20,419 bases of DNA, taken from positions 1 through 20,419 of IMG/VR virus record IMGVR_UViG_3300046010_004030, one strand, 5' to 3'. Numbering within the stretch: the stretch's first letter is position 1; every line of letters starts with the position of its first letter. The position numbers were made by a program, and so were the translations under genes. Source of the DNA: a virus. This document shows positions 154 to 14,567 of the stretch, in pieces. The notes below the pieces were generated by a model that was not told the origin of the DNA, did not search any database, and saw only the letters and a list, made by a program, of their open reading frames with translations.

Positions 154-160
154 TATTTAT
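154..160 (-). promoter_or_regulatory. T4-late-type promoter box before the leftmost gene
   Basis: The minus strand reads GATAAATACT here, containing the core ATAAATA of the T4 late promoter (TATAAATA). It overlaps the TAA stop of the upstream gene and ends 7 bases before the ATG at 146. The same ten bases occur before the 813-residue gene at 10871-10880. No other promoter element is visible. Confidence 0.45.
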
Positions 161-909
161 CTGCGTTCTATATCTTCTTCTACGCAGGCAATACCATACT
201 GGATTTCAACTATTTTACAGAGTGTATCGGTGGGATTGTGTAGTTTATGCCAACACTCAGCTTTGATCGTAAACTGATCGTGTCGTTTAAGTTTAATGTG
301 ACTTTTAGTAGTAGCATCTTCAAAGTCTACAGTACATGCGCCTTCTGCTACATGCCAGTGTTCGTCACGATCATAATGTCGTTGCATGGTTAGGCTTTGC
401 CTTGGATTAATAGTGAGTTCTTTTACTTTGGTGCCCGGAACTTCATGTAAGACACGATAATAACCCCAGGGACGAATTGTTTTGGGGGCTTTATATTCTT
501 CAAGGATCCAACTACTTGAATTCTTTTTATTATAACCGCCTACACCAAATTCAAACTTAACATCTGGTTCTGACATTTCTGGGATATTATCTGCTGTACG
601 ATCACCACCGTTAGCAAAGATGATTTCGCTGTTAGGATACATGGTTTTAACATTACGTATGGCTTCGATAGCGTGATCTTCTGCGTCGTTAAACAAGATA
701 CAGTGATCTACCATGCGGAGATTTTCAATGATCTGCACACGCTCATAGCTGGGCATGAACTCGCGGCCTTTTTTACGTTGTAGCCAGCTGTCGCTGTTTA
801 CTCCAACTACTAGGATGTCACCTAGACGACGAGCCTCACGGAAATATTCAATATGTCCAGAATGTATAGGGTCAAACCCCCCTGTAACTAAAACAACTCT
901 ATTTACCAT
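157..909 (-). CDS. Nucleotidyltransferase fused to a mannose-6-phosphate-isomerase-type cupin
   Basis: The protein has 250 residues and two domains. Residues 1-125 look like a cytidylyltransferase/RfaE-C-type domain: a beta strand into GGFDPIHSGH (10-19) with the HxGH nucleotide-binding motif H16-x-G-H19, then NSD (38-40), KKGR (46-49) and GGDRT (101-105). Family members move CMP or AMP onto sugar or polyol phosphates. Residues 145-240 look like a type II phosphomannose isomerase/ManC C-terminal cupin: RPWGYYR, a likely metal set of H178, E183/H184/H186, H221 and H224, and E235 late in the fold. The start ATG overlaps the methyltransferase stop by 11 bases and has GGAAGAG about 8 bases upstream. 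Together the domains suggest making or shaping an activated sugar. Substrate and nucleotide cannot be read. Family calls are firm; pathway is inference. Confidence 0.85.
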   Translation of the reverse strand: MVNRVVLVTGGFDPIHSGHIEYFREARRLGDILVVGVNSDSWLQRKKGREFMPSYERVQIIENLRMVDHCILFNDAEDHAIEAIRNVKTMYPNSEIIFANGGDRTADNIPEMSEPDVKFEFGVGGYNKKNSSSWILEEYKAPKTIRPWGYYRVLHEVPGTKVKELTINPRQSLTMQRHYDRDEHWHVAEGACTVDFEDATTKSHIKLKRHDQFTIKAECWHKLHNPTDTLCKIVEIQYGIACVEEDIERR

Positions 910-2510: not shown

Positions 2511-4061
2511 TCAGTGTGTTAAAATAGGTATAACTTTATTTTTCTTTTTCTCTTTGGCCGCCTTCATATTTGCGGTAAACTCTTCAACATATAATTCTAT
2601 ATATACTAAATTATCGATACTCATCGGATATCTCAATTCTGTTAACAATTTTGACATTTCAATATATCGTCGAAGTCTTTCTTTAACAGTTAATGTGGGG
2701 TTAACCCCAACAGTCCAATTACTAATGTTAGAATATTGTGTATTGTGTATTTCTATTCCTAATTCGTCAAACTTCTCCCACAATGGTGTATTTGTATAAA
2801 GTACTGTAGTGCCGCCCATACTTGTACCAATGATGGTACTATCTATTAGATATTTTTGATTCTTTTTATAAAAAGTTACAGTATCTTCCCAATCTTCTAT
2901 GGTTTCTGTAGGATAACCAGTAAACGTCGTGATAAAGTTTTTAATTCCATATTTAGACGACATTTCAAAATGGTAGTCAATGTCGAGATTTGAAAATTTC
3001 TTACCCATATGATTACGCACACGTTCACTGCCTGACTCTATACCTACTTGAAGATGATCACACCCGGAATCTCTTAACAGCTCATATAGATATTCCGGAT
3101 GTTGATCTTTTGGGCGGATAATAAATTGTCCCGAATAAGTCATTGATTCAAAGCCCGAGATTGTTTTTTTTGCGTTTAATATTTCCTGCATGACTTCTTT
3201 AAATTGTTTCAATGATCCATTGATTAAGCTATCGTTAAAAAAATAATTAGTACATTCGGTTTCATTGTAATTTCTAATTATTTCTGCTACGATATGTTTG
3301 GCACTTCTAAATCTGAATTTTTTCCATATGGATCCAATATCACAAAATGTACATCGACGCACACACCCTCGACTACCGGTTATATTTATAGTAGGTGGTA
3401 TTTTATTTTTGCTTAAAGTATTTGCATGACCATACTGCATTATATCAATTTTTTTATATGTAGGTAAAATTAAATTATCTAAATTATCGATCTGTGCAAC
3501 CCACGCATCAGTTAATGTAGATTTAGAGTTTACCCCGATATCAATTTGACCGTGAAGGAAATTACTAAATGCGAAGTCACCTTCTCCTAATACAAAATAG
3601 TCTAATATACCTTTGTCAACTAAAATCCTTCCTGCTGTTTTTCCTATTTCCTGTTCGTAACTTATACCGGGACCACCTGCAATAGTTGTTACATTACTTT
3701 TCTTTTTTAAAGTAGCTAAAAATTTTTCTGTCCAGGCGATTTGCATGGCGCTTAGTGAAGTAATAGCAACCAGATCCGGATCATGAGCTAGAACTTTTTC
3801 TACGGCTTGCTCACTTGCTTCATTGACTATTTTCTCTATTTCTTCGTTGGGATAGACAAATTTCATATTATATGAACAGGCTTCTATCTTAGTCCAAACA
3901 TCAATGTCATATGTTTGTTGTATAAACAGATTAAGATCAAACAATTCATAGTTAACTTGATTGTGATCACAGATTCCTGCTAAGAAGGCCAATCCTGCAG
4001 GCGCCCGATCGGTCGTCAACATCGCCGATGATACTAATACTGCTTTCTTATACTTAGTCAT
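2511..4061 (-). CDS. Radical SAM enzyme with N-terminal B12-binding-like domain
   Basis: The protein has 516 residues. The radical SAM motif is C233-x3-C237-x2-C240 (CVRRCTFC), which holds the 4Fe-4S cluster that cleaves SAM. Residues 1-160 look like the Rossmann-type cobalamin-binding fold of this superfamily (KKAVLVSSAM, PAGLAFLAGICDHN, DLVAITSLSAMQ, TTIAGGPGIS, FVLGEGDFAF), but the DxHxxG motif is absent, as in many base-off members. After the cluster come GIESGSERVRNHMGK and TFTGYPTETIEDW, typical of the Elp3/MiaB-type barrel. Family reactions include methylation at unreactive carbons and ring changes. The start overlaps the stop of the 173-residue gene by 8 bases. Base composition is more AT-rich than in the terminase or gp32 genes, which suggests later acquisition. 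The lysine-rich tail is unusual. Substrate unknown. Confidence 0.88.
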   Translation of the reverse strand: MTKYKKAVLVSSAMLTTDRAPAGLAFLAGICDHNQVNYELFDLNLFIQQTYDIDVWTKIEACSYNMKFVYPNEEIEKIVNEASEQAVEKVLAHDPDLVAITSLSAMQIAWTEKFLATLKKKSNVTTIAGGPGISYEQEIGKTAGRILVDKGILDYFVLGEGDFAFSNFLHGQIDIGVNSKSTLTDAWVAQIDNLDNLILPTYKKIDIMQYGHANTLSKNKIPPTINITGSRGCVRRCTFCDIGSIWKKFRFRSAKHIVAEIIRNYNETECTNYFFNDSLINGSLKQFKEVMQEILNAKKTISGFESMTYSGQFIIRPKDQHPEYLYELLRDSGCDHLQVGIESGSERVRNHMGKKFSNLDIDYHFEMSSKYGIKNFITTFTGYPTETIEDWEDTVTFYKKNQKYLIDSTIIGTSMGGTTVLYTNTPLWEKFDELGIEIHNTQYSNISNWTVGVNPTLTVKERLRRYIEMSKLLTELRYPMSIDNLVYIELYVEEFTANMKAAKEKKKNKVIPILTH

Positions 4062-5752: not shown

Positions 5753-6640
5753 TCATATACCCCTCAACTTGCTTTGTTCTTGTATGTATGCCAATGACTC
5801 TGGCGTGCCTTTATTTTCAATTGCTAATTCACTTGGTGTTGTTAGATAAGCGTAGCTATGGTCAATACCGTGTTCTTGAGCAAATGCTACGATGTTTGGC
5901 AAATCATCTACGTTTAATACACTTACAGTAGTCCACAGATTTAATTTTACAGGCATTGTTTTATATGTCATTAAGTTTTTGTAGAACTTGTCCCATTTAA
6001 TTGGCCAACGTACAAAATCATGTACGGCGCCAATTCCATCTAAACTAACGGTCACAGTAATATCAATGCCGCGAGCCTTCAATGGCAACAATTCTTCTAA
6101 TACTTTACTACAGTTTGTATTAAGCCTGACTGATTTTACATTCTTAGGTAAATTTGCTAGTAAGTGCTTATAATTTTTACTATGACTTGGTTCACCGCCA
6201 TTGATATCCAAATGAATAATACGTTCTTGTGGTAATTCCCAAAACTTGTTAGCATTGTTGATTTTAATGTATTTTTTATTAGTCAAACTACCAATTTTAG
6301 TACTAAGTTGTTCGTTACAGGTTAGACAGGCACTATTACAAACATTGTCTAATACCCCGCCAACTATCAAATAGTCTTTGCGTATCTTTTTAAAAATTTG
6401 GTCTCGTTTGATGCTATCTAGTCTGATGCTAGTATTAGATTCTTGTTCTGTTGTTTTACAGCGGTGACATTCCGCGGGCCAAGCATCACGGGACATTTTA
6501 TCTTTTATATCTACGATCCAATCACTGGATTCTAGTTCACTGTATGAGTTAAATCTAGGACCAGCAGTCATATGGCCGCAACAACCGACTGTGCCGTCAG
6601 GATTAAATCTAACAAAATGGTCTAGTCTAGGACAATACAT
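5753..6640 (-). CDS. Radical SAM protein with N-terminal twitch/auxiliary cysteine cluster
   Basis: The protein has 295 residues. The radical SAM motif is C101-x3-C105-x2-C108 (CNSACLTC), followed by HLDINGGEPSHSK, the usual GGEP strand that contacts SAM. It also has a cysteine set before the barrel: C3, C20, C21, C58 and C61 around NPDGTVGCCGHM and ECHRC. In twitch/SPASM proteins such cysteines hold a second iron-sulfur cluster, normally after the barrel; here they come first. The barrel continues through TVSLDGIGAVHDFVRWPI and is short, ending soon after YAYLTTPSE. Family members modify peptides or sugars. The start overlaps the sulfotransferase-like stop by 14 bases, suggesting coupled translation and a shared pathway. 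Substrate unknown. Confidence 0.85.
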   Translation of the reverse strand: MYCPRLDHFVRFNPDGTVGCCGHMTAGPRFNSYSELESSDWIVDIKDKMSRDAWPAECHRCKTTEQESNTSIRLDSIKRDQIFKKIRKDYLIVGGVLDNVCNSACLTCNEQLSTKIGSLTNKKYIKINNANKFWELPQERIIHLDINGGEPSHSKNYKHLLANLPKNVKSVRLNTNCSKVLEELLPLKARGIDITVTVSLDGIGAVHDFVRWPIKWDKFYKNLMTYKTMPVKLNLWTTVSVLNVDDLPNIVAFAQEHGIDHSYAYLTTPSELAIENKGTPESLAYIQEQSKLRGI

Positions 6641-7247
6641 GAGCGCATGCCTTGGGATCTTTCTCTTTAAGATATTTTAATATCTCATCAAATGTCATAC
6701 TTTCGCCGACTAAGTTTAATAATAGATTATCAATTCTTAAATACATTTCATTGTGTATGTTAGTGGTTAGTCTATCTACTACTTCAGCAGATAATAATGG
6801 GGTTTCATTGGGCTTTATATTCAATGGTGTAAAATTTTTTAAACTATCCATGCCTAATAGATGTAGTTTGGTATGTTTGTCAGCATATCTAGTTAGATTG
6901 ACTATCCAACTGAACTGTGGTGCGTAGTGTCTATTCAAAAATAAATATGTTTCAGCAAAATAAATTACGGTGTCTAAATCTAGTTGTGGATTTTCTTGTT
7001 TAGTATTATAGACGTAAGTGTTAAATCCTGAAATAAATCGTTCTTGCGGATTTCTTATGATTATGTTAATATCAGATAATTTTCTTATCTGCTCATTGAA
7101 TAGAATCTTTAGTTGTTGAGCTTGTGCGTATTCGGTAAGACTACTACTACCATTTTTAAAAATGGGGTAGATGTACCGTTGTGAAGCTTCTATTTCTATA
7201 ACTTCACAACGGTTTGGATAGATTATGTCATCTAATCTACTCAACAT
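6627..7247 (-). CDS. Sulfotransferase-like protein
   Basis: The protein has 206 residues, short for the family, which usually has 250-300. YPIFKNGSSSL (27-37) matches the 5'-phosphosulfate-binding loop (PxxKxGSSS), and IIIRNPQERFISGF (62-75) matches the 3'-phosphate-binding motif, with the conserved R/S pair of PAPS-dependent sulfotransferases. The rest is helical. Family members move sulfate from PAPS to sugars, lipids or proteins. The gene starts 14 bases after the gp32 stop and overlaps the radical SAM gene downstream. No strong ribosome site is visible, so translation may depend on read-through from gp32. The acceptor is unknown, and the compact size leaves open a minimal or altered enzyme. 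Confidence 0.75.
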   Translation of the reverse strand: MLSRLDDIIYPNRCEVIEIEASQRYIYPIFKNGSSSLTEYAQAQQLKILFNEQIRKLSDINIIIRNPQERFISGFNTYVYNTKQENPQLDLDTVIYFAETYLFLNRHYAPQFSWIVNLTRYADKHTKLHLLGMDSLKNFTPLNIKPNETPLLSAEVVDRLTTNIHNEMYLRIDNLLLNLVGESMTFDEILKYLKEKDPKACAHVLS

Positions 7248-8426: not shown

Positions 8427-10868
8427 TTATTTTACGCCTGCTAGTTTCCTAAGTTGTTGTTGTTCTTGATCGTATTGTGCTTTTCTCTTGTAAGCAGGTT
8501 CAGCAGTATTAATACCTGCCCATGGTTGTTTTTCTCTTTGAGCTGCTGGGTTAACGCCTGGTAACGTGCCTGTGGGTTGTCCTGGAGTGATGCCTTTACG
8601 TTGGAATGTTGGTTTATCGTATGGTTTGTAATCAGGATTGTCTGGCATTTCTATCGCTTCTTTGGCTACCTTTTCTGCATCTAATTTTTTAATGTGATAT
8701 ATTTTATCATCAACTTGTATAGTATAATTTTCTTCCATGTCACCTACTACTTTGCCTGAGATTTTTGGTTGAGTTTTATCTCTGATCATATCGCCTACAT
8801 TGATTGATCCTTCGTTTACTAATTTTTCAAATGTTTCTTCTAATGTTTCGTCTTTAGCCATCTTTTCTGTTCGTCTGCGAGCAACATCACTCATGTGATG
8901 GATCTTACCAACAGGATCTTTCTTCTTAGTTTGTTTTTTCCAATCACCTTCGTGTTCCCAGCCTGTTAATTTGCCTGTTTTAGGATCATATTTAATAGTA
9001 TCTTTTTCTTCATTGACTTCATTGTCTTTGTCAAATTCTTTCTTTGTGATAAAATGATTTTCATCACAGCAACCAAGTTTGTCATCACGTGGATCACCAC
9101 AATAGACACATACCTGTTCACTGTCTTCAATATCTCGTTCTTCTGTTACTTCTTTACTTTCGATACCGGCGTCCTGTTCAATTTGGCGAACCCAGCCACT
9201 GACATCGCTAGTACCAATTTCTTCAACAGGTGCAGCATATTCTGCTATTTCACGTGCCGCTTCTAATACACTATCTGGACCTAGTTTCATCAATAGTTCA
9301 TGATGGCTGTGTGCAATCCTGCGTATGATAGCTGATTGGATCGCTTCGAAACCACCATCATCATCTTCTTCGTCTTCTTTTACTGTATCTTTGTATAAGT
9401 CGTCAATGTCACCTAGGTAACCATCGCAGGCGTGTTCTTCATCATGTGGACAATCACCGCCGCAATATTTGCAATCTTCTTTGTCTTCTTCGTAGACCAC
9501 ACCATCTATACCACTGTTGCTTGAGCCATAAGTGTTACCTTCGTCTACTTCTTGATTGTCTTCTGCTGGTTCTGCTGGTGTATCTTGGTCACCGATTTCA
9601 TTCATGATCTGTTGATAGATGTGTGGTAGGTTATCCTGTAGCCAATCAACTACTAGGTCACGTGCATCTGCTTCTGGATCTGATTTAGCCAGTTCTCCTA
9701 GACGATCAAACAGTCTGTCGTCACCGATGATATTGTACAGTGCGTTAGTAGCGTTCTGCCCATCTACTCCTACTGGCAAGGGTTGATTTAGTACATCGAT
9801 CAACTTAGCAACTTCATCATCACTGTCTGGCACTGCCCAGGTACCTTCGCTGACCGTGTCAGCCCAGCTTTCAAATTGTTCTGCAAATTTATTTTCTTTC
9901 TTCATGTTATATGCCTTATGTACCAAAGGTAATGCTTCCTCTAACCGTTCATCAAATGTGCGTTTAACGAAACGCTCTTTCATTTCATCTGTATCAACTT
10001 CTGGAATATAGCTGGTTGATGTTGCTACAAATTGTTCTGCGCATTTTTTGTAACCTTTCTTGCCTGTCATGCGAGTTAGTGTGTTATTTAATAGGCCATG
10101 ATATTCAAATGCTGCTTCTACCATCGCGTGTGTTTGCGTGTCTTCAAATGTTCTGTAGCGGACTTTGTTCAAAAATGGTTTAAGTTTAGCCGCTTCTATA
10201 GCCATTTCACAGATGTGTCGACCTAAATCATCGTGTAGATCGCCACCTTGTTTGAAATGCTGTGCTACTGCACGGGCTAGTTTCAAGCTCTTGACTGGCA
10301 TCTTGAAACGCTCACCTTCTTGATTTTCAACATAGATATTGTTAATATGATGTGCTCGGGAACGGCGATTTTCTTCATCTATGATAGGTTGGCTGTGGCG
10401 AACTATGATGCGTACAGGACCTTTCTTTTCATAGCTTGATCGTCGGGTACCATATAGGCTTTCGCTGACTACATCGTCTCTAGTATAGGTATCATCTGAC
10501 TTGCTGATCTGCTGTATATCACGATGTTTTAGTGTTGAGCGTGTGATATCTCTGGGCTCAAAGCTCAACAGATTACGCTTGGCAAATTCACGCAGTTCAC
10601 GCAGGAATCTATACCATTCTTTTTTGTGTTCGTCATCTAGATCATCGCTGATATTCTTGCTAAAATAGACTTTTAGACTAGTTTCATCTATCAGGCTGAT
10701 GGTGATATTACCGTGATCATGGTCATCTATCACATAGTCAAAGTTGAAAAAACGTGCAGATTCTGGATCTGTAGTGGCCTTGGCTTTATCATCGCCCAAA
10801 CTGACATCCTCGAATCTATCACGGATTTTCTCAAATAGGCCTTCTGCTATCTTGTTAATTTCTCTCAT
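8427..10868 (-). CDS. Large acidic protein with two cysteine clusters, probably virion-associated; unknown
   Basis: The protein has 813 residues. Residues 1-160 are charged and helical, opening MREINKIAEGLFEKI. Residues 180-300 look like an ordered helical domain (LARAVAQHFKQGGDLHDDL, FEYHGLLNNTLTRMTGKKGY). The middle is very acidic and holds two separate clusters: C466-x2-C469-x3-C473-x7-C481, and C587-x2-C590-x9-C600-C601 with H605 nearby. Near residue 690 a short beta-rich stretch (NVGDMIRDKTQP to DKIYHIKKL) resembles a KOW/SH3 barrel. The tail is Pro/Gln-rich and ends LRKLAGVK. I recall similar proteins in marine T4-like phages annotated only as structural or hypothetical. It follows the terminase directly, with a late box 5 bases before its ATG, which fits a late head or packaging role. 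Function is not established. Confidence 0.8.
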   Translation of the reverse strand: MREINKIAEGLFEKIRDRFEDVSLGDDKAKATTDPESARFFNFDYVIDDHDHGNITISLIDETSLKVYFSKNISDDLDDEHKKEWYRFLRELREFAKRNLLSFEPRDITRSTLKHRDIQQISKSDDTYTRDDVVSESLYGTRRSSYEKKGPVRIIVRHSQPIIDEENRRSRAHHINNIYVENQEGERFKMPVKSLKLARAVAQHFKQGGDLHDDLGRHICEMAIEAAKLKPFLNKVRYRTFEDTQTHAMVEAAFEYHGLLNNTLTRMTGKKGYKKCAEQFVATSTSYIPEVDTDEMKERFVKRTFDERLEEALPLVHKAYNMKKENKFAEQFESWADTVSEGTWAVPDSDDEVAKLIDVLNQPLPVGVDGQNATNALYNIIGDDRLFDRLGELAKSDPEADARDLVVDWLQDNLPHIYQQIMNEIGDQDTPAEPAEDNQEVDEGNTYGSSNSGIDGVVYEEDKEDCKYCGGDCPHDEEHACDGYLGDIDDLYKDTVKEDEEDDDGGFEAIQSAIIRRIAHSHHELLMKLGPDSVLEAAREIAEYAAPVEEIGTSDVSGWVRQIEQDAGIESKEVTEERDIEDSEQVCVYCGDPRDDKLGCCDENHFITKKEFDKDNEVNEEKDTIKYDPKTGKLTGWEHEGDWKKQTKKKDPVGKIHHMSDVARRRTEKMAKDETLEETFEKLVNEGSINVGDMIRDKTQPKISGKVVGDMEENYTIQVDDKIYHIKKLDAEKVAKEAIEMPDNPDYKPYDKPTFQRKGITPGQPTGTLPGVNPAAQREKQPWAGINTAEPAYKRKAQYDQEQQQLRKLAGVK

Positions 10869-10873
10869 GTAAG

Positions 10874-10880
10874 TATTTAT
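10874..10880 (-). promoter_or_regulatory. T4-late-type promoter box before the 813-residue gene
   Basis: The minus strand reads GATAAATACT, identical over ten bases to the site at 151-160. ATAAATA follows the terminase TAG directly and ends 5 bases before the next ATG. No Shine-Dalgarno sequence fits in the remaining 5 bases. Confidence 0.45.
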
Positions 10881-12449
10881 CTATGTAATGAAGAATGGCA
10901 TGGGCTCGATCACATCTTCCAAGCTGTCTTTCATGGTCAAATCCAGCTGGCTGTCAAAGCTCTGCAACATCTGCGCCATGCGTACTATTAGTATCAAGCT
11001 CATTACTAGATCGTCAGTTTCGCCTGGTTTTGCCGCATAACTACTGCCATGTGCTACAAAAGTCTTGAGTTCTGATATCAATGGACGGCTGACGATCGTC
11101 ATGCGTTTGGATTCTATTAGATTTTTAAGTTTAGCGCAGGCTGATATCTTGCTGGAATTAGTGGTATTAAATCCCTTGCGATAACGCCGGCCAGATCCCA
11201 TGCGTTTAGATTCGCTTAGGAATATGCCCTTGATGTTCTCTTCACCAATTTCACTGATGCTGATCAGAGCCGCTTCGCCTACGGTGTTATTTTCTACACT
11301 GTAGTAAATATTGTTGGGATTGACTGTTTCGGCGAGATATTTGGTTATTTCTGTTAGGATCCCTACCTGTTGCTGTATGGGTGTGCGATTATGCTGCCAC
11401 TCACCTACTTGCCTAAATGTAGGCAATTCAAATATCTGTATACCTGCAGGATCTCCACCCGTGCCTAAGCTGGGATCTAAAGACACCACATAGGTATATT
11501 GCGCTTCTGGACGTTTATACCAGCGCACTTGCCCCTGGCGTTCTATGGGATCCAACCCTTGCATTTCGACTAAGAAACTAGGACTGATTAGGGTTTCTTC
11601 CCAGATGATGAATTCACAATCCATTTCACGGCGGAAACGTTCATCACCTAGCTGTGCTCGTTGTTGTACGGCCCAAGCTTCATCACGATCTGGGTGTTCG
11701 TTCCAATAGCTACGGAATGCTTTGAATCCATTGATGCCAAGTTCAGTTGGATTACCAAACTCGTCAAACTGCTTGTTAGCACCTTTCCATAAGGTAGCAA
11801 ACTGATCTTCATCGCTGTTAGGGGTACTAGTGATAATACATTTACCACCAGTGGCTAATGTAGGACTGATTGAAGTCCAGAATTCACGACCTATAGTAGG
11901 GCGAACGAAGGCAAACTCATCAGCATACAGCAATGAAATACTCAGGCCTCGACCTGTATTTTCTGTTGTTGTAGCTGATATAATACGACTACCATTATCA
12001 AAATCTATACTACCTTTGTTGTAACTCACCGCACCTGCACGTATGAAATCCGGCACGCTTTCGTAAGCGTAACGGATACGTTGCATGATTTCTTGTGAGC
12101 CTGTGTATTTGTGTGCGGCAATTAGGATAGTGCTGTCAGATTTAAACATAGCATACCAAAGTAGGTATCCCGCTGCTGACGTTGACTTACCTGTTTGCCG
12201 GGGCATTAGACTGATGCTAAAGCGATAGTTATGATAGGTATGGATTAGGCGTTTCTGATAGTTAAATGGTGCATACAGCATACGTCCTCGAGTAGGATGC
12301 TGTATGTAAAAGTAGTTGCTCATAAAGTATTCAGGGCCCGTGCTAGGGTCTGCGCACTTTGCGAATTCTCTTAATTGTTCTTCAGTAAAGCTCTCACGGG
12401 TATGAGGCTTCTTTACTAGAACACTATCTGTTCCTTTAGCCGTTGCCAT
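10881..12449 (-). CDS. gp17: Large terminase subunit (gp17-like packaging ATPase-nuclease)
   Basis: The protein has 522 residues from the ATG at 12449; T4 gp17 has 610. The N-terminal ATPase has an adenine-side motif near YAPFNYQKRLI, Walker A PRQTGKST (83-90), Walker B LLYADEF with D177 and E178, and a coupling motif near ITSTPNSD. The C-terminal RNase H-like nuclease has its acidic triad at D325 (SLDPSLG), E386 (ENNTVGEA) and D479/D480 (ETDDLVMS), matching T4 D401, E458 and D542. It pumps DNA into the prohead through the portal and cuts concatemers. I prefer the ATG over a TTG five codons earlier, because the TTG lies inside the end of the preceding gene and has no ribosome site. The preceding radical SAM stop is 4 bases upstream. 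All key residues are present. Confidence 0.97.
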   Translation of the reverse strand: MATAKGTDSVLVKKPHTRESFTEEQLREFAKCADPSTGPEYFMSNYFYIQHPTRGRMLYAPFNYQKRLIHTYHNYRFSISLMPRQTGKSTSAAGYLLWYAMFKSDSTILIAAHKYTGSQEIMQRIRYAYESVPDFIRAGAVSYNKGSIDFDNGSRIISATTTENTGRGLSISLLYADEFAFVRPTIGREFWTSISPTLATGGKCIITSTPNSDEDQFATLWKGANKQFDEFGNPTELGINGFKAFRSYWNEHPDRDEAWAVQQRAQLGDERFRREMDCEFIIWEETLISPSFLVEMQGLDPIERQGQVRWYKRPEAQYTYVVSLDPSLGTGGDPAGIQIFELPTFRQVGEWQHNRTPIQQQVGILTEITKYLAETVNPNNIYYSVENNTVGEAALISISEIGEENIKGIFLSESKRMGSGRRYRKGFNTTNSSKISACAKLKNLIESKRMTIVSRPLISELKTFVAHGSSYAAKPGETDDLVMSLILIVRMAQMLQSFDSQLDLTMKDSLEDVIEPMPFFIT

Positions 12450-12453
12450 ACTA

Positions 12454-14301
12454 TTACTTATCAAGTTTAATTTTTACTTTACTAGAACCACTTCTTCTTC
12501 CTATATAAAATCTTCTGCAAAACTCATCAATATTAGTTTCGTTGATGATCGAATCCAGTATCAGAGTTGTTTTTCCAGATGCTTCCTTAGAAAAAAATGT
12601 TTGATTATAAATGTTGCTGTCTATGTCGATGTGGTAAGGATATTTTTGCTTAAAATCAACATTAAAATGTTTTTGAAATAACACTAGTTCATCAATCTCT
12701 GATATTTTATAACTATTTCTTACAAAATTTTCTAATTCGGTCTGAACCTGTGTTAGTTCAACCGGAAACACTCTAGTAGAATTCCATATTATATTTGTTC
12801 CAGATTTAAATTTTGACGACGAATCTAATCGCCCTGTATTAAGATAAGAATTTATAATATTTTTTACATTCTTATATTCTTTATTCAATATACCGTTTGA
12901 CTTTATTATAAAATCATATAATCTATTATAGAATGTTTCATAACTTATACTGTGTGCATTATTTAGATATCTACTATAAATCTGACTGTAACCAATATAA
13001 TGAAAAGTAGTCATCATCCAACTAAACATAAACGATTCTATTAGTTCAGATATATCCATATATTTTGTAGCTCGAATTAATTTTTGTTTCTCAATTATTG
13101 AATCAGTCAAATCATCTTTGCCGCTTAAATAATTTTCTACCTCAATCAATTCAAGTTGGTGCTTTTCTATCTGTTCAACACTGTTAAGTTCTGAATTTTC
13201 CAAAATCATTGTCAAATAAACATCTACCGTTGAGTGCTGATTATGATTTAATAATGCAAAATGACCTAATCGCCACGATTCATTGGTCTCAAACGGCAAG
13301 CCTAATATCAATTCAGAATAAACAGGAACACCAGCTATTTCACATTTAGGCAAAAGTGCCGCCATATTACTTAAATCCATATTTTTTCTTTTAATTTCTG
13401 TTAGCACTTCATCAGACATGCTTTGCACAGAAACTGTTAATCCCCTAGGCCCTAATATTTTTGCTATTTCGAGCACTTTAAGGCTGGACGTTTTGTTCCA
13501 ACTAACTGATAATGTGCGGGGATAACCTGTTGTTCTTTTGAGTCTATCTATTTCTATTGCTATTTGTTTATCTCGTTCTACAAAAATACCAAAATTAGCA
13601 TCTGGTATAGCGATATATTCTATTTTATGTTTTGATGCCCACTCTAACTCTTCAAATACTCTTTCAAGATTAAATTTTTTTATTTTACTATAGGTAACTC
13701 CGCCCCAATCACAAAACGTACAGGAAAACGGGCATCCCCTGTTTGTTTCTAAAATCATCTGCCATTTAATTGAATCATTTGATACTAATTGATCAAATAC
13801 TCCTGTTAAATACGGACTTGGTATGCTATCTAAATTATCTATTCTAGCCGATGAATAAACTTTTTTAATTATTCCGTTAGTAAGAATTGTATCTAAAACA
13901 TCCTTAAAAGCATATTCTCCTTCTCCGTTAACAATACAATCTACATATGGGTGATTTTTAAAGAATAATTTTTGGAATGGTTTATTAGTTACTTGCGGAC
14001 CACCAAATACTATTAAGGAGTCAGGGAATTCTTTTTTAATTTGTTTGGCTAACTCTTTGTTATATTCCCAATTCCAGACATAACAACTAAACGCTACAAT
14101 TTTGGGAGTTTCTAATCGAGATATTATTTGTTTAATATTTTCTCGTTTAAAAAATATTTCACCTAATTTAAAATTATTTTTTATGTTGTCAAATTGTGAA
14201 ACATAACTCCATAATATTCCAACAGAATAAGGCAAAAAATATTCAGGTGTTGAAGTAGGGCCAAAATCAAAATTTGGCTGAACCAAATATACATTATACA
14301 T
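12454..14301 (-). CDS. AT-rich radical SAM enzyme with N-terminal B12-binding-like domain
   Basis: The protein has 615 residues. The cluster motif is C190-x3-C194-x2-C197 in RGCPFSCTFCDWGG. The N-terminal 160 residues look like the cobalamin-binding fold (VYLVQPNFDFG, KIVAFSCYVWNWEYN, LIVFGGPQVTN, VNGEGEYAF) without the DxHxxG motif. The barrel continues through IAIPDANFGIF, LTVSVQSMSDEVL and ELILGLPFETNESW. Residues from about 370 to the end form a long helical extension rich in Ile, Asn, Tyr and Lys that matches nothing I recognise. Composition differs sharply from the terminase: I counted 10 G/C of 60 at 12841-12900 against 32 of 60 at 11641-11700. A late box precedes it, and its start is 5 bases after that box. 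Substrate unknown; probable horizontal acquisition. Confidence 0.88.
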   Translation of the reverse strand: MYNVYLVQPNFDFGPTSTPEYFLPYSVGILWSYVSQFDNIKNNFKLGEIFFKRENIKQIISRLETPKIVAFSCYVWNWEYNKELAKQIKKEFPDSLIVFGGPQVTNKPFQKLFFKNHPYVDCIVNGEGEYAFKDVLDTILTNGIIKKVYSSARIDNLDSIPSPYLTGVFDQLVSNDSIKWQMILETNRGCPFSCTFCDWGGVTYSKIKKFNLERVFEELEWASKHKIEYIAIPDANFGIFVERDKQIAIEIDRLKRTTGYPRTLSVSWNKTSSLKVLEIAKILGPRGLTVSVQSMSDEVLTEIKRKNMDLSNMAALLPKCEIAGVPVYSELILGLPFETNESWRLGHFALLNHNQHSTVDVYLTMILENSELNSVEQIEKHQLELIEVENYLSGKDDLTDSIIEKQKLIRATKYMDISELIESFMFSWMMTTFHYIGYSQIYSRYLNNAHSISYETFYNRLYDFIIKSNGILNKEYKNVKNIINSYLNTGRLDSSSKFKSGTNIIWNSTRVFPVELTQVQTELENFVRNSYKISEIDELVLFQKHFNVDFKQKYPYHIDIDSNIYNQTFFSKEASGKTTLILDSIINETNIDEFCRRFYIGRRSGSSKVKIKLDK

Positions 14302-14306
14302 AGAAT

Positions 14307-14313
14307 TATTTAT
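14307..14313 (-). promoter_or_regulatory. T4-late-type promoter box before the AT-rich radical SAM gene
   Basis: The minus strand reads TTCATAAATAATTC; ATAAATA ends 5 bases before the ATG at 14301. It would let this gene be expressed late together with the terminase downstream. The local AT-richness raises the chance of a random match. Confidence 0.4.
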
Positions 14314-14317
14314 GAAC

Positions 14318-14344
14318 TACCGGTGCTACCGGTAATTAATTACC
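14318..14344. repeat. Hairpin and palindrome at the edge of the AT-rich radical SAM gene
   Basis: Two inverted repeats adjoin. TACCGGT-GCT-ACCGGTA (14318-14334) can form a 7-base-pair hairpin with a 3-base loop, and GGTAATTAATTACC (14331-14344) is a perfect 14-base palindrome that overlaps the stop of the 75-residue gene. No T run follows on either strand, so a rho-independent terminator is doubtful. It may be a weak transcription pause, a protein-binding site or a junction scar. Confidence 0.4.
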
Positions 14345-14567
14345 AGGGCTTTTCGCCGGTTAGATATGGTTTTGAGAACCATAATTGGAACCATTCTGGG
14401 GTTCCTGGTTGGACGTTGTGTTCTTTTTGATATTGTATTTTTTCGTTGGCAGTTATGCTCATATTACTGCCTTCTGTGCTAACTGTACCTTCGCCTTTGT
14501 ATTCCTGTAGGCGACCAATGTTTTGTGTGATGCCGGCTAGTTGCTTGATTTGGTCTATATCGTCCAT
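14340..14567 (-). CDS. Small unknown protein, 75 residues
   Basis: The protein starts MDDIDQIKQLAGI and is polar, with an aromatic C-terminal part (PEWFQLWFSKPYLTGEKPW). The ATG at 14567 comes one base after the stop of the preceding gene, with GGAG about 8 bases upstream inside that gene's last codons. The opening I-K-Q-L-A-G-I resembles LAG motifs in the 1097- and 813-residue proteins of the same block. No function is recognised; its place among head/packaging genes suggests late expression. Its small size and clean coupling make it a probable real gene. Confidence 0.65.
   Translation of the reverse strand: MDDIDQIKQLAGITQNIGRLQEYKGEGTVSTEGSNMSITANEKIQYQKEHNVQPGTPEWFQLWFSKPYLTGEKPW

Follow-up and report, generated by a model that had tools for sequence, protein, structure and literature searches.

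A radical SAM gene between p75 and the terminase gene

The window analysed here is a whole IMG/VR record of 20,419 bases and represents a piece of a large T4-like phage. The terminase encoded on it shares 54% identity with that of Pseudomonas phage PA5oct and about 50% with its counterparts in Sinorhizobium phage Phosso and Agrobacterium phage Atu_ph07. Two further contigs belong to the same phage by overlap: L250, which is 100% identical over 2.5 kb, and L002, which is 99.97% identical over 18 kb. Read from its conserved ATG, the gene for the large subunit of the terminase occupies positions 10881–12449 on the minus strand (the ORF list places a TTG start at 12464). An open reading frame of 615 codons lies directly in front of it, covering exactly 12454–14301 (-). 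By reading frame, Pfam, profile and fold, this gene encodes an intact cobalamin-dependent radical SAM enzyme of the TokK/CysS type, hereafter SAM615. On its upstream side, it is bordered by p75, a conserved small gene (14340–14567 (-)), whose stop codon is 38 nt away from the SAM615 start.

Two Pfam domains were found in SAM615, both above their cut-offs: Radical_SAM (PF04055; E = 4.6e-12, 46.8 bits, cut-off 29.5) and B12-binding (PF02310; E = 1.3e-10, 41.6 bits, cut-off 32.1). The first-pass annotation, which had called a 615-residue radical SAM/cobalamin-type enzyme at this position, was therefore correct. It had also stressed the contrast in composition with the terminase. Indeed, the GC content of SAM615 is 29.7% (GC3 21%) versus 44.2% (GC3 41%) for the terminase, but further genes of the window (p173, the sulfotransferase-like gene, SAM516 and p133) lie at 30–36% as well. 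The contrast is thus sharpest against the terminase, and low GC marks probable cargo genes generally.

SAM615 shares the complete architecture of TokK and CysS

Known TokK-type enzymes belong to a few antibiotic pathways. Among proteins of solved structure, TokK (E = 9.4e-81) and CysS (E = 2.7e-46) were the best relatives of SAM615 by sequence. A family profile built from 92 relatives matched TokK with an E-value of 1.5e-156 over profile positions 21–590 of 638, reaching TokK residue 610. The AlphaFold (AF2) model of SAM615 (pLDDT 94, pTM 0.93) was compared with known structures using Foldseek: TokK matched over the whole chain with a TM-score of 0.87 and CysS with 0.77, and TsrM and OxsB reached just 0.46–0.50. 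The protein consists of an N-terminal Rossmann-type cobalamin domain (residues ~1–165), a radical SAM domain (~166–375) and a C-terminal domain (~376–615), which is the arrangement of class 1 enzymes. The last of these had been described in the first-pass annotation as a long unmatched extension; instead, its 240 residues match the C-terminal domain of TokK, both in the profile alignment, which runs to TokK residue 610, and in the fold.

The residues expected to hold the cofactors are also in place. Codons 190–200 (13702–13734 (-)) read CPFSCTFCDWG and supply the putative [4Fe-4S] cysteines C190, C194 and C197, together with Trp199, two residues past the last cluster cysteine. According to sequence and fold, this CxxxCxxC motif is carried by a TIM-barrel domain, as in the radical SAM superfamily. 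The three cysteines are invariant in the family (92/92 sequences), as is Trp76 (codon 14074–14076 (-); 92/92), while Trp199 is present in 91 of 92. Trp76 corresponds to the tryptophan under the cobalt, at the lower face of the cobalamin, which is Trp76 in TokK and Trp75 in CysS (PMC9692996, PMC12846815), and Trp199 corresponds to TokK Trp215, the bridge between SAM and cobalamin (PMC9692996). Both tryptophans that characterize TokK/CysS-type enzymes are accordingly found in SAM615. We regard it as nearly certain that SAM615, with all the elements of the TokK/CysS architecture, belongs to the class-1 cobalamin-dependent radical SAM enzymes, and methylation is likely to be its reaction, rather than another of the reactions of cobalamin-dependent radical SAM enzymes.

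The top NCBIfam match was the KedN5 family of methylcobalamin radical SAM C-methyltransferases (NF033712; 234.3 bits, residues 23–374); membership was rejected in view of the curated cut-off of 700 bits. A search of the PHROGs library returned no match to SAM615. We also rejected the idea of a degraded copy: the frame is open, the catalytic residues are all present and the model has a pLDDT of 94.

TokK (PDB 7kdx/7kdy), a carbapenem methylase, has in common with SAM615 the three full-length domains including the C-terminal one, the CxxxCxxC motif, the bridging tryptophan of CDWG and Trp76. However, the two proteins are only about 28% identical, and SAM615 is the cargo of a phage without a beta-lactam pathway. 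CysS (PDB 9n1b-d), the iterative methylase of cystobactamid, resembles SAM615 in its fold and in the tryptophan equivalent to Trp75, but identity is 23%, its substrate is held on a pantetheine arm, and no carrier-protein pathway was seen in the phage. Two proteins of uncultured Caudovirales in BFVD (A0A6J7XS70 and A0A6J5LGQ4, annotated as B12-binding-like or COG1032) match over the full length with TM-scores of 0.73–0.76, but they share only 18–20% identity with SAM615 and are without an assigned function.

The gap in front of the terminase is a slot for exchangeable cargo

The site was surveyed in 80 terminase relatives with 75–97% identity. Both flanking genes were present in 75 loci, a count that takes in near-copies as well as L002, the second contig of the window's own phage. 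The gap between p75 and the terminase was empty (up to 89 bp) in 57 of these loci. In 17, it held other cargo, namely HNH/NUMOD3 or HNH_5 nucleases or a protein of ~245 residues. SAM615 was found in one locus, and this was L002. Relatives without the gene at the terminase site, which the first-pass annotation had suggested looking for, are hence the rule. The gene is neither at this locus in all relatives nor degraded, the two outcomes which that annotation had set against its own reading. In PA5oct and Phosso, too, the gene was not found in front of the terminase. The inserts of the relatives are mostly AT-rich (30–37% GC, versus 39–43% for their terminases), with two exceptions close to the terminase value.

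At its 3' edge, the insert runs into the conserved terminase leader, GATAAGTAATAGTATGGCA. The final two codons and the stop of SAM615 (GAT AAG TAA) are read from this leader, and the stop codon (12454–12456) overlaps the end of the conserved terminase box ATAAGTA (GATAAGTAATAGTATG; 12455–12461 (-)). When empty and filled junctions were compared by eye, no flanking repeat pair or duplication was seen. The terminal inverted repeats, target duplication and nuclease or transposase expected of a transposon or homing insertion were not found. Located between p75 and the terminase in a viral contig and variable among relatives, SAM615 has the properties of an auxiliary metabolic gene.

As judged from these comparisons, the site before the terminase is a slot for exchangeable cargo. 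The earlier description of the gene as packaging-linked did not hold up: in sister phages the slot is occupied by HNH nucleases or an unrelated gene, TokK-type genes are placed elsewhere, and T4-like viruses that are not related often have them on the strand opposite to the head genes. Since SAM615 is slot cargo whose stop lies inside the terminase box, it is best described as late-box cargo and not as a packaging gene. A packaging function was accordingly rejected, as the slot holds unrelated cargo and homologs are found elsewhere in sister phages. With sister phages that are empty, nuclease-filled or enzyme-filled, the slot provides a clean natural experiment.

The ~245-residue protein found in the slot of L025, L033, L054 and L089 has an SGNH-like 'GCSFTEGVG' motif and belongs to no Pfam family.

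SAM615 has a late-type box of its own

The first-pass annotation had noticed a late-type box belonging to the gene itself, and we confirmed it: ATAAATA (as CATAAATA; 14307–14313 (-)) lies 5 nt ahead of the SAM615 ATG, and the same box stands at the terminase, also in 41/50 relatives. The spacing between box and ATG is equal for SAM615, the terminase (12461–12455) and the gene after the terminase (10880–10874). Four boxes are located 2–8 nt ahead of an ATG, and in each case this ATG is the start of a real gene, against a chance expectation of 1.55; the fourth of these genes was read on L250. SAM615 thus has, directly upstream, the TATAAATA-like box of T4-type late genes, which is promoter-like by sequence and suggests late expression.

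In the clade (L013–L092), ATAA[AG]TA is located right before the terminase ATG in 41 of 50 distinct starts and before the gene after the terminase in 45 of 48, a gene start at which a Shine-Dalgarno sequence occurs in 0/48. The genes for gp32 (42/42), RecA (28/28) and p81 (18/18) have a Shine-Dalgarno sequence and no box. If transcription starts as it does in T4, the late mRNAs of this clade would be leaderless.

A 10-bp hairpin (AATTACCGGT-AGC-ACCGGTAGTT; 14315–14337 (-); fold z -2.5) is situated between p75 and SAM615. It accounts for the inverted-repeat pair that had been taken to mark the upstream edge of the gene. The hairpin itself is real, but it lacks a T run, pairs with nothing at the far edge of the insert and gives no sign of a mobile-element end. 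Longer-range inverted repeats in the AT-rich stretch are weak (70–88%). As the hairpin is one-sided and without a duplication, we rejected it as a mobile-element end.

TokK-type enzymes are widespread in uncultured viruses

The family was found on at least 79 uncultured virus contigs, and the best 80 loci in the scan of viral stretches all match SAM615 with E-values of about 1e-125 or better. Three members were searched with tblastn against 50,697 phage records; two partial matches only, with 22–26% identity, were obtained, on human fecal contigs. Scanning bacterial genomes with a single protein yielded nothing, and the clostridial homologs described below were recovered with an alignment query. 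The first-pass annotation had proposed a tree with other radical SAM/B12 proteins. In this tree, SAM615 is placed in a virus-rich clade with a support of 98, which comprises 56 viral rows and another 5 (some short) from genome-collection contigs. SAM615 itself forms a long lone branch, its nearest relative being L095 with 45% identity; the tree was sampled by nearness to the query, so the direction of transfer is not readable from it.

Of the viral relatives, 67 remained after dereplication, and 17 of these have the gene no more than five genes from that of a T4 portal, tail tube, sheath or prohead protease; in those 17 loci it is on the strand opposite to them. Homologs within the phage's own clade are found beside UvsW (G012/L253, 41% identical), inside a radical SAM cluster (G019/L254, 33%) and near AhcY (L255 and L256, 28%). 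In the second of these (L254, 2096–7077), several SPASM-like radical SAM genes, a carbamoyltransferase-like gene and SGNH-like genes adjoin the TokK-like gene. L121 and L119, both from T4-like viruses, have two tandem TokK-like copies on the opposite strand between the genes for the portal and a gp21-like protease.

Radical SAM cassettes and LPS genes have been reported generically in marine T4-like phages (PMC7029224, PMC7150976). In pelagi- and cyanomyophages (PMC7029224), the variable islands are similar in that radical SAM and sugar/LPS genes form variable cargo in T4-like structural regions. However, the enzymes were not identified there as TokK-type or cobalamin-dependent, and they belong to the host recognition cluster, not to a p75-terminase slot. 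No report of TokK-type enzymes in viruses, or of B12-dependent radical SAM enzymes in connection with polysaccharide or cyanophage glycan, turned up in a literature search. The enzyme class as such is known; in the literature searched, we found no description of the TokK-type identity, of the breadth among viruses or of the terminase slot. Many uncultured viruses and gut Clostridia carry a TokK-type machine, beside nucleotide-sugar genes, and it is nearly absent from isolated phages. This breadth points to a large pool of candidate sugar C-methylases, and to phages that would use up vitamin B12 of the host, and two SAM for each methyl group, on a surface or virion sugar.

Neighbouring genes and the sugar operon of the phage

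In L095, the nearest relative, the gene order is GT1, NAD epimerase, SGNH-like, SAM, DegT aminotransferase. Among viral neighbours up to two genes away (n = 150), there were eight epimerases, four DegT proteins and two UDPG-dehydrogenases; genes further away, used as a control, gave one epimerase in 150, so that the excess is modest. The clostridial homologs are arranged in tandem with each other, with epimerases, NTP (sugar nucleotidyl) transferases, cupins, GT2 and polysaccharide genes nearby.

The phage has glycan genes of its own. The first of them (157–909 (-)) encodes an RfaE-domain-II-like adenylyltransferase joined to a mannose-6-phosphate-isomerase-type cupin, and the series runs on past the window edge in L250. 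There, the operon comprises an RmlB-type dehydratase, an epimerase, an NDP-sugar C-methyltransferase (Methyltransf_13/14), an NTP transferase and GT2. SAM615 lies outside this operon, the first sugar gene past the window being well over 10 kb away. Sister phages largely share this operon, and the fragmentary sister contig L257/G002 has it without a match to SAM615, so operon and gene appear not to be strictly linked.

The earlier suggestion that the enzyme acts on virion proteins, glycans or a host metabolite can be narrowed: neighbours and sugar operon best support a glycan or nucleotide sugar, and a virion protein is without support. DNA, RiPP and virion-protein modification were considered as well, and no supporting partner gene for them was present in the window or in L250.

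L250 also has a complete gene for AhcY, the adenosylhomocysteinase, at 9890–11215 (-) (608 bits, cut-off 498). AhcY was detected in 12 of 17 clade contigs, some of which have an in-frame stop within the part that matches, and in just 3 of the 50,697 phage records.

Proposed function of SAM615

With moderate confidence, we propose that this cargo gene is expressed late and that its product, SAM615, is an active C-methylase of the TokK/CysS type which most likely acts on a nucleotide sugar or glycan intermediate of the phage's operon. The neighbours of its viral and clostridial relatives, together with the phage's own sugar operon, favour this kind of substrate. GenK, the gentamicin C-6' C-methylase, provides a precedent for the methylation of a sugar carbon by a cobalamin-dependent radical SAM enzyme (PMC4039129); the likeness drawn here is one of reaction. 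Several points speak against the proposal: SAM615 is not part of the sugar operon, which already contains its own C-methyltransferase, the epimerase excess near viral homologs is modest, and two divergent relatives have neighbours suggestive of a small-molecule pathway (see below).

According to this scheme, a first SAM would donate its methyl group to the cob(I)alamin above Trp76, which yields methylcobalamin and leaves SAH. The second SAM, bound to the [4Fe-4S] cluster on C190, C194 and C197, would be cleaved to the 5'-deoxyadenosyl radical, which would abstract a hydrogen from the substrate at an unactivated sp3 carbon; the resulting substrate radical would receive the methyl group from methylcobalamin. 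The cobalamin would have to come from the host, and the phage's AhcY could clear the SAH left by methylcobalamin regeneration. The product might be a C-methylated surface sugar on host LPS or capsule or on a phage glycan. Such a sugar might exclude competing phages or hide the virion or the cell. A wider generalization is offered only tentatively, and we would not yet bet on it: a broad TokK-type lineage, mainly in uncultured T4-like viruses, might C-methylate unactivated nucleotide-sugar carbons of host-surface or phage glycans during infection. If this is true, the viral lineage would represent the first such enzyme for polysaccharides, and the B12 of infected cells would become a phage resource.

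An enzyme of the same class in the same slot could instead act on a small host or phage metabolite such as an amino acid, a lipid, a cofactor or a secreted compound, which we consider rather unlikely. TokK and CysS themselves act on small antibiotic intermediates (PMC12846815). Moreover, in L255 (8368–14917) and L256 (7500–14174), a divergent TokK-like protein belongs to a conserved block with AhcY, a flavodoxin-like oxidoreductase, a desaturase-like protein, a TauD oxygenase and a methyltransferase (Pfam was run on the L255 copies), and this block looks like a small biosynthetic pathway for a small molecule rather than a glycan. However, with an identity of just 28%, these relatives align to only a part of the profile, no comparable block was seen in the 36 kb of the SAM615 phage, and both the nearest relative and the clostridial homologs adjoin nucleotide-sugar genes.

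A late modification of phage DNA or of a virion protein by SAM615, to protect the genome or tailor the capsid, seems improbable to us. It would fit the late-type box, the position beside the terminase and the 17 of 67 relatives with T4-type structural genes close by. In addition, GTP cyclohydrolase I is encoded no more than five genes away in 10 of the 67 dereplicated viral relatives. Against this last point, GTP cyclohydrolase is common among T4-like phages. Against this stand the use of the terminase site by unrelated cargo, the opposite orientation to the head genes in those 17 loci, the sister-phage homologs beside UvsW or in a radical SAM cluster, and a TokK fold without a nucleic-acid domain. 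We give equally little weight to a selfish or passenger insertion which the slot tolerates and from whose enzyme the phage draws no benefit. The presence of SAM615 at the terminase site in one lineage only, the HNH/NUMOD3 nucleases in the slot of other phages, the AT-rich composition and the long lone branch would agree with this idea. Nevertheless, cofactor residues and the whole fold have stayed intact at about 40% identity to the relatives, the gene has its own promoter-like box, and the family recurs in dozens of virus lineages.

Further radical SAM genes in the window

The window contains a second B12-type radical SAM enzyme of 516 residues at 2511–4061 (-). Distant relatives of it (29–35% identity) were found in L021, L023, L024, L057 and L088 between the gene after the terminase and gp32, and L054 has a relative as well. 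At 5753–7247 (-), a sulfotransferase-like gene (206 residues) is paired with a twitch-type radical SAM gene (295 residues). Several relatives have the same pair between gp32 and RecA, and it may form a two-gene module.
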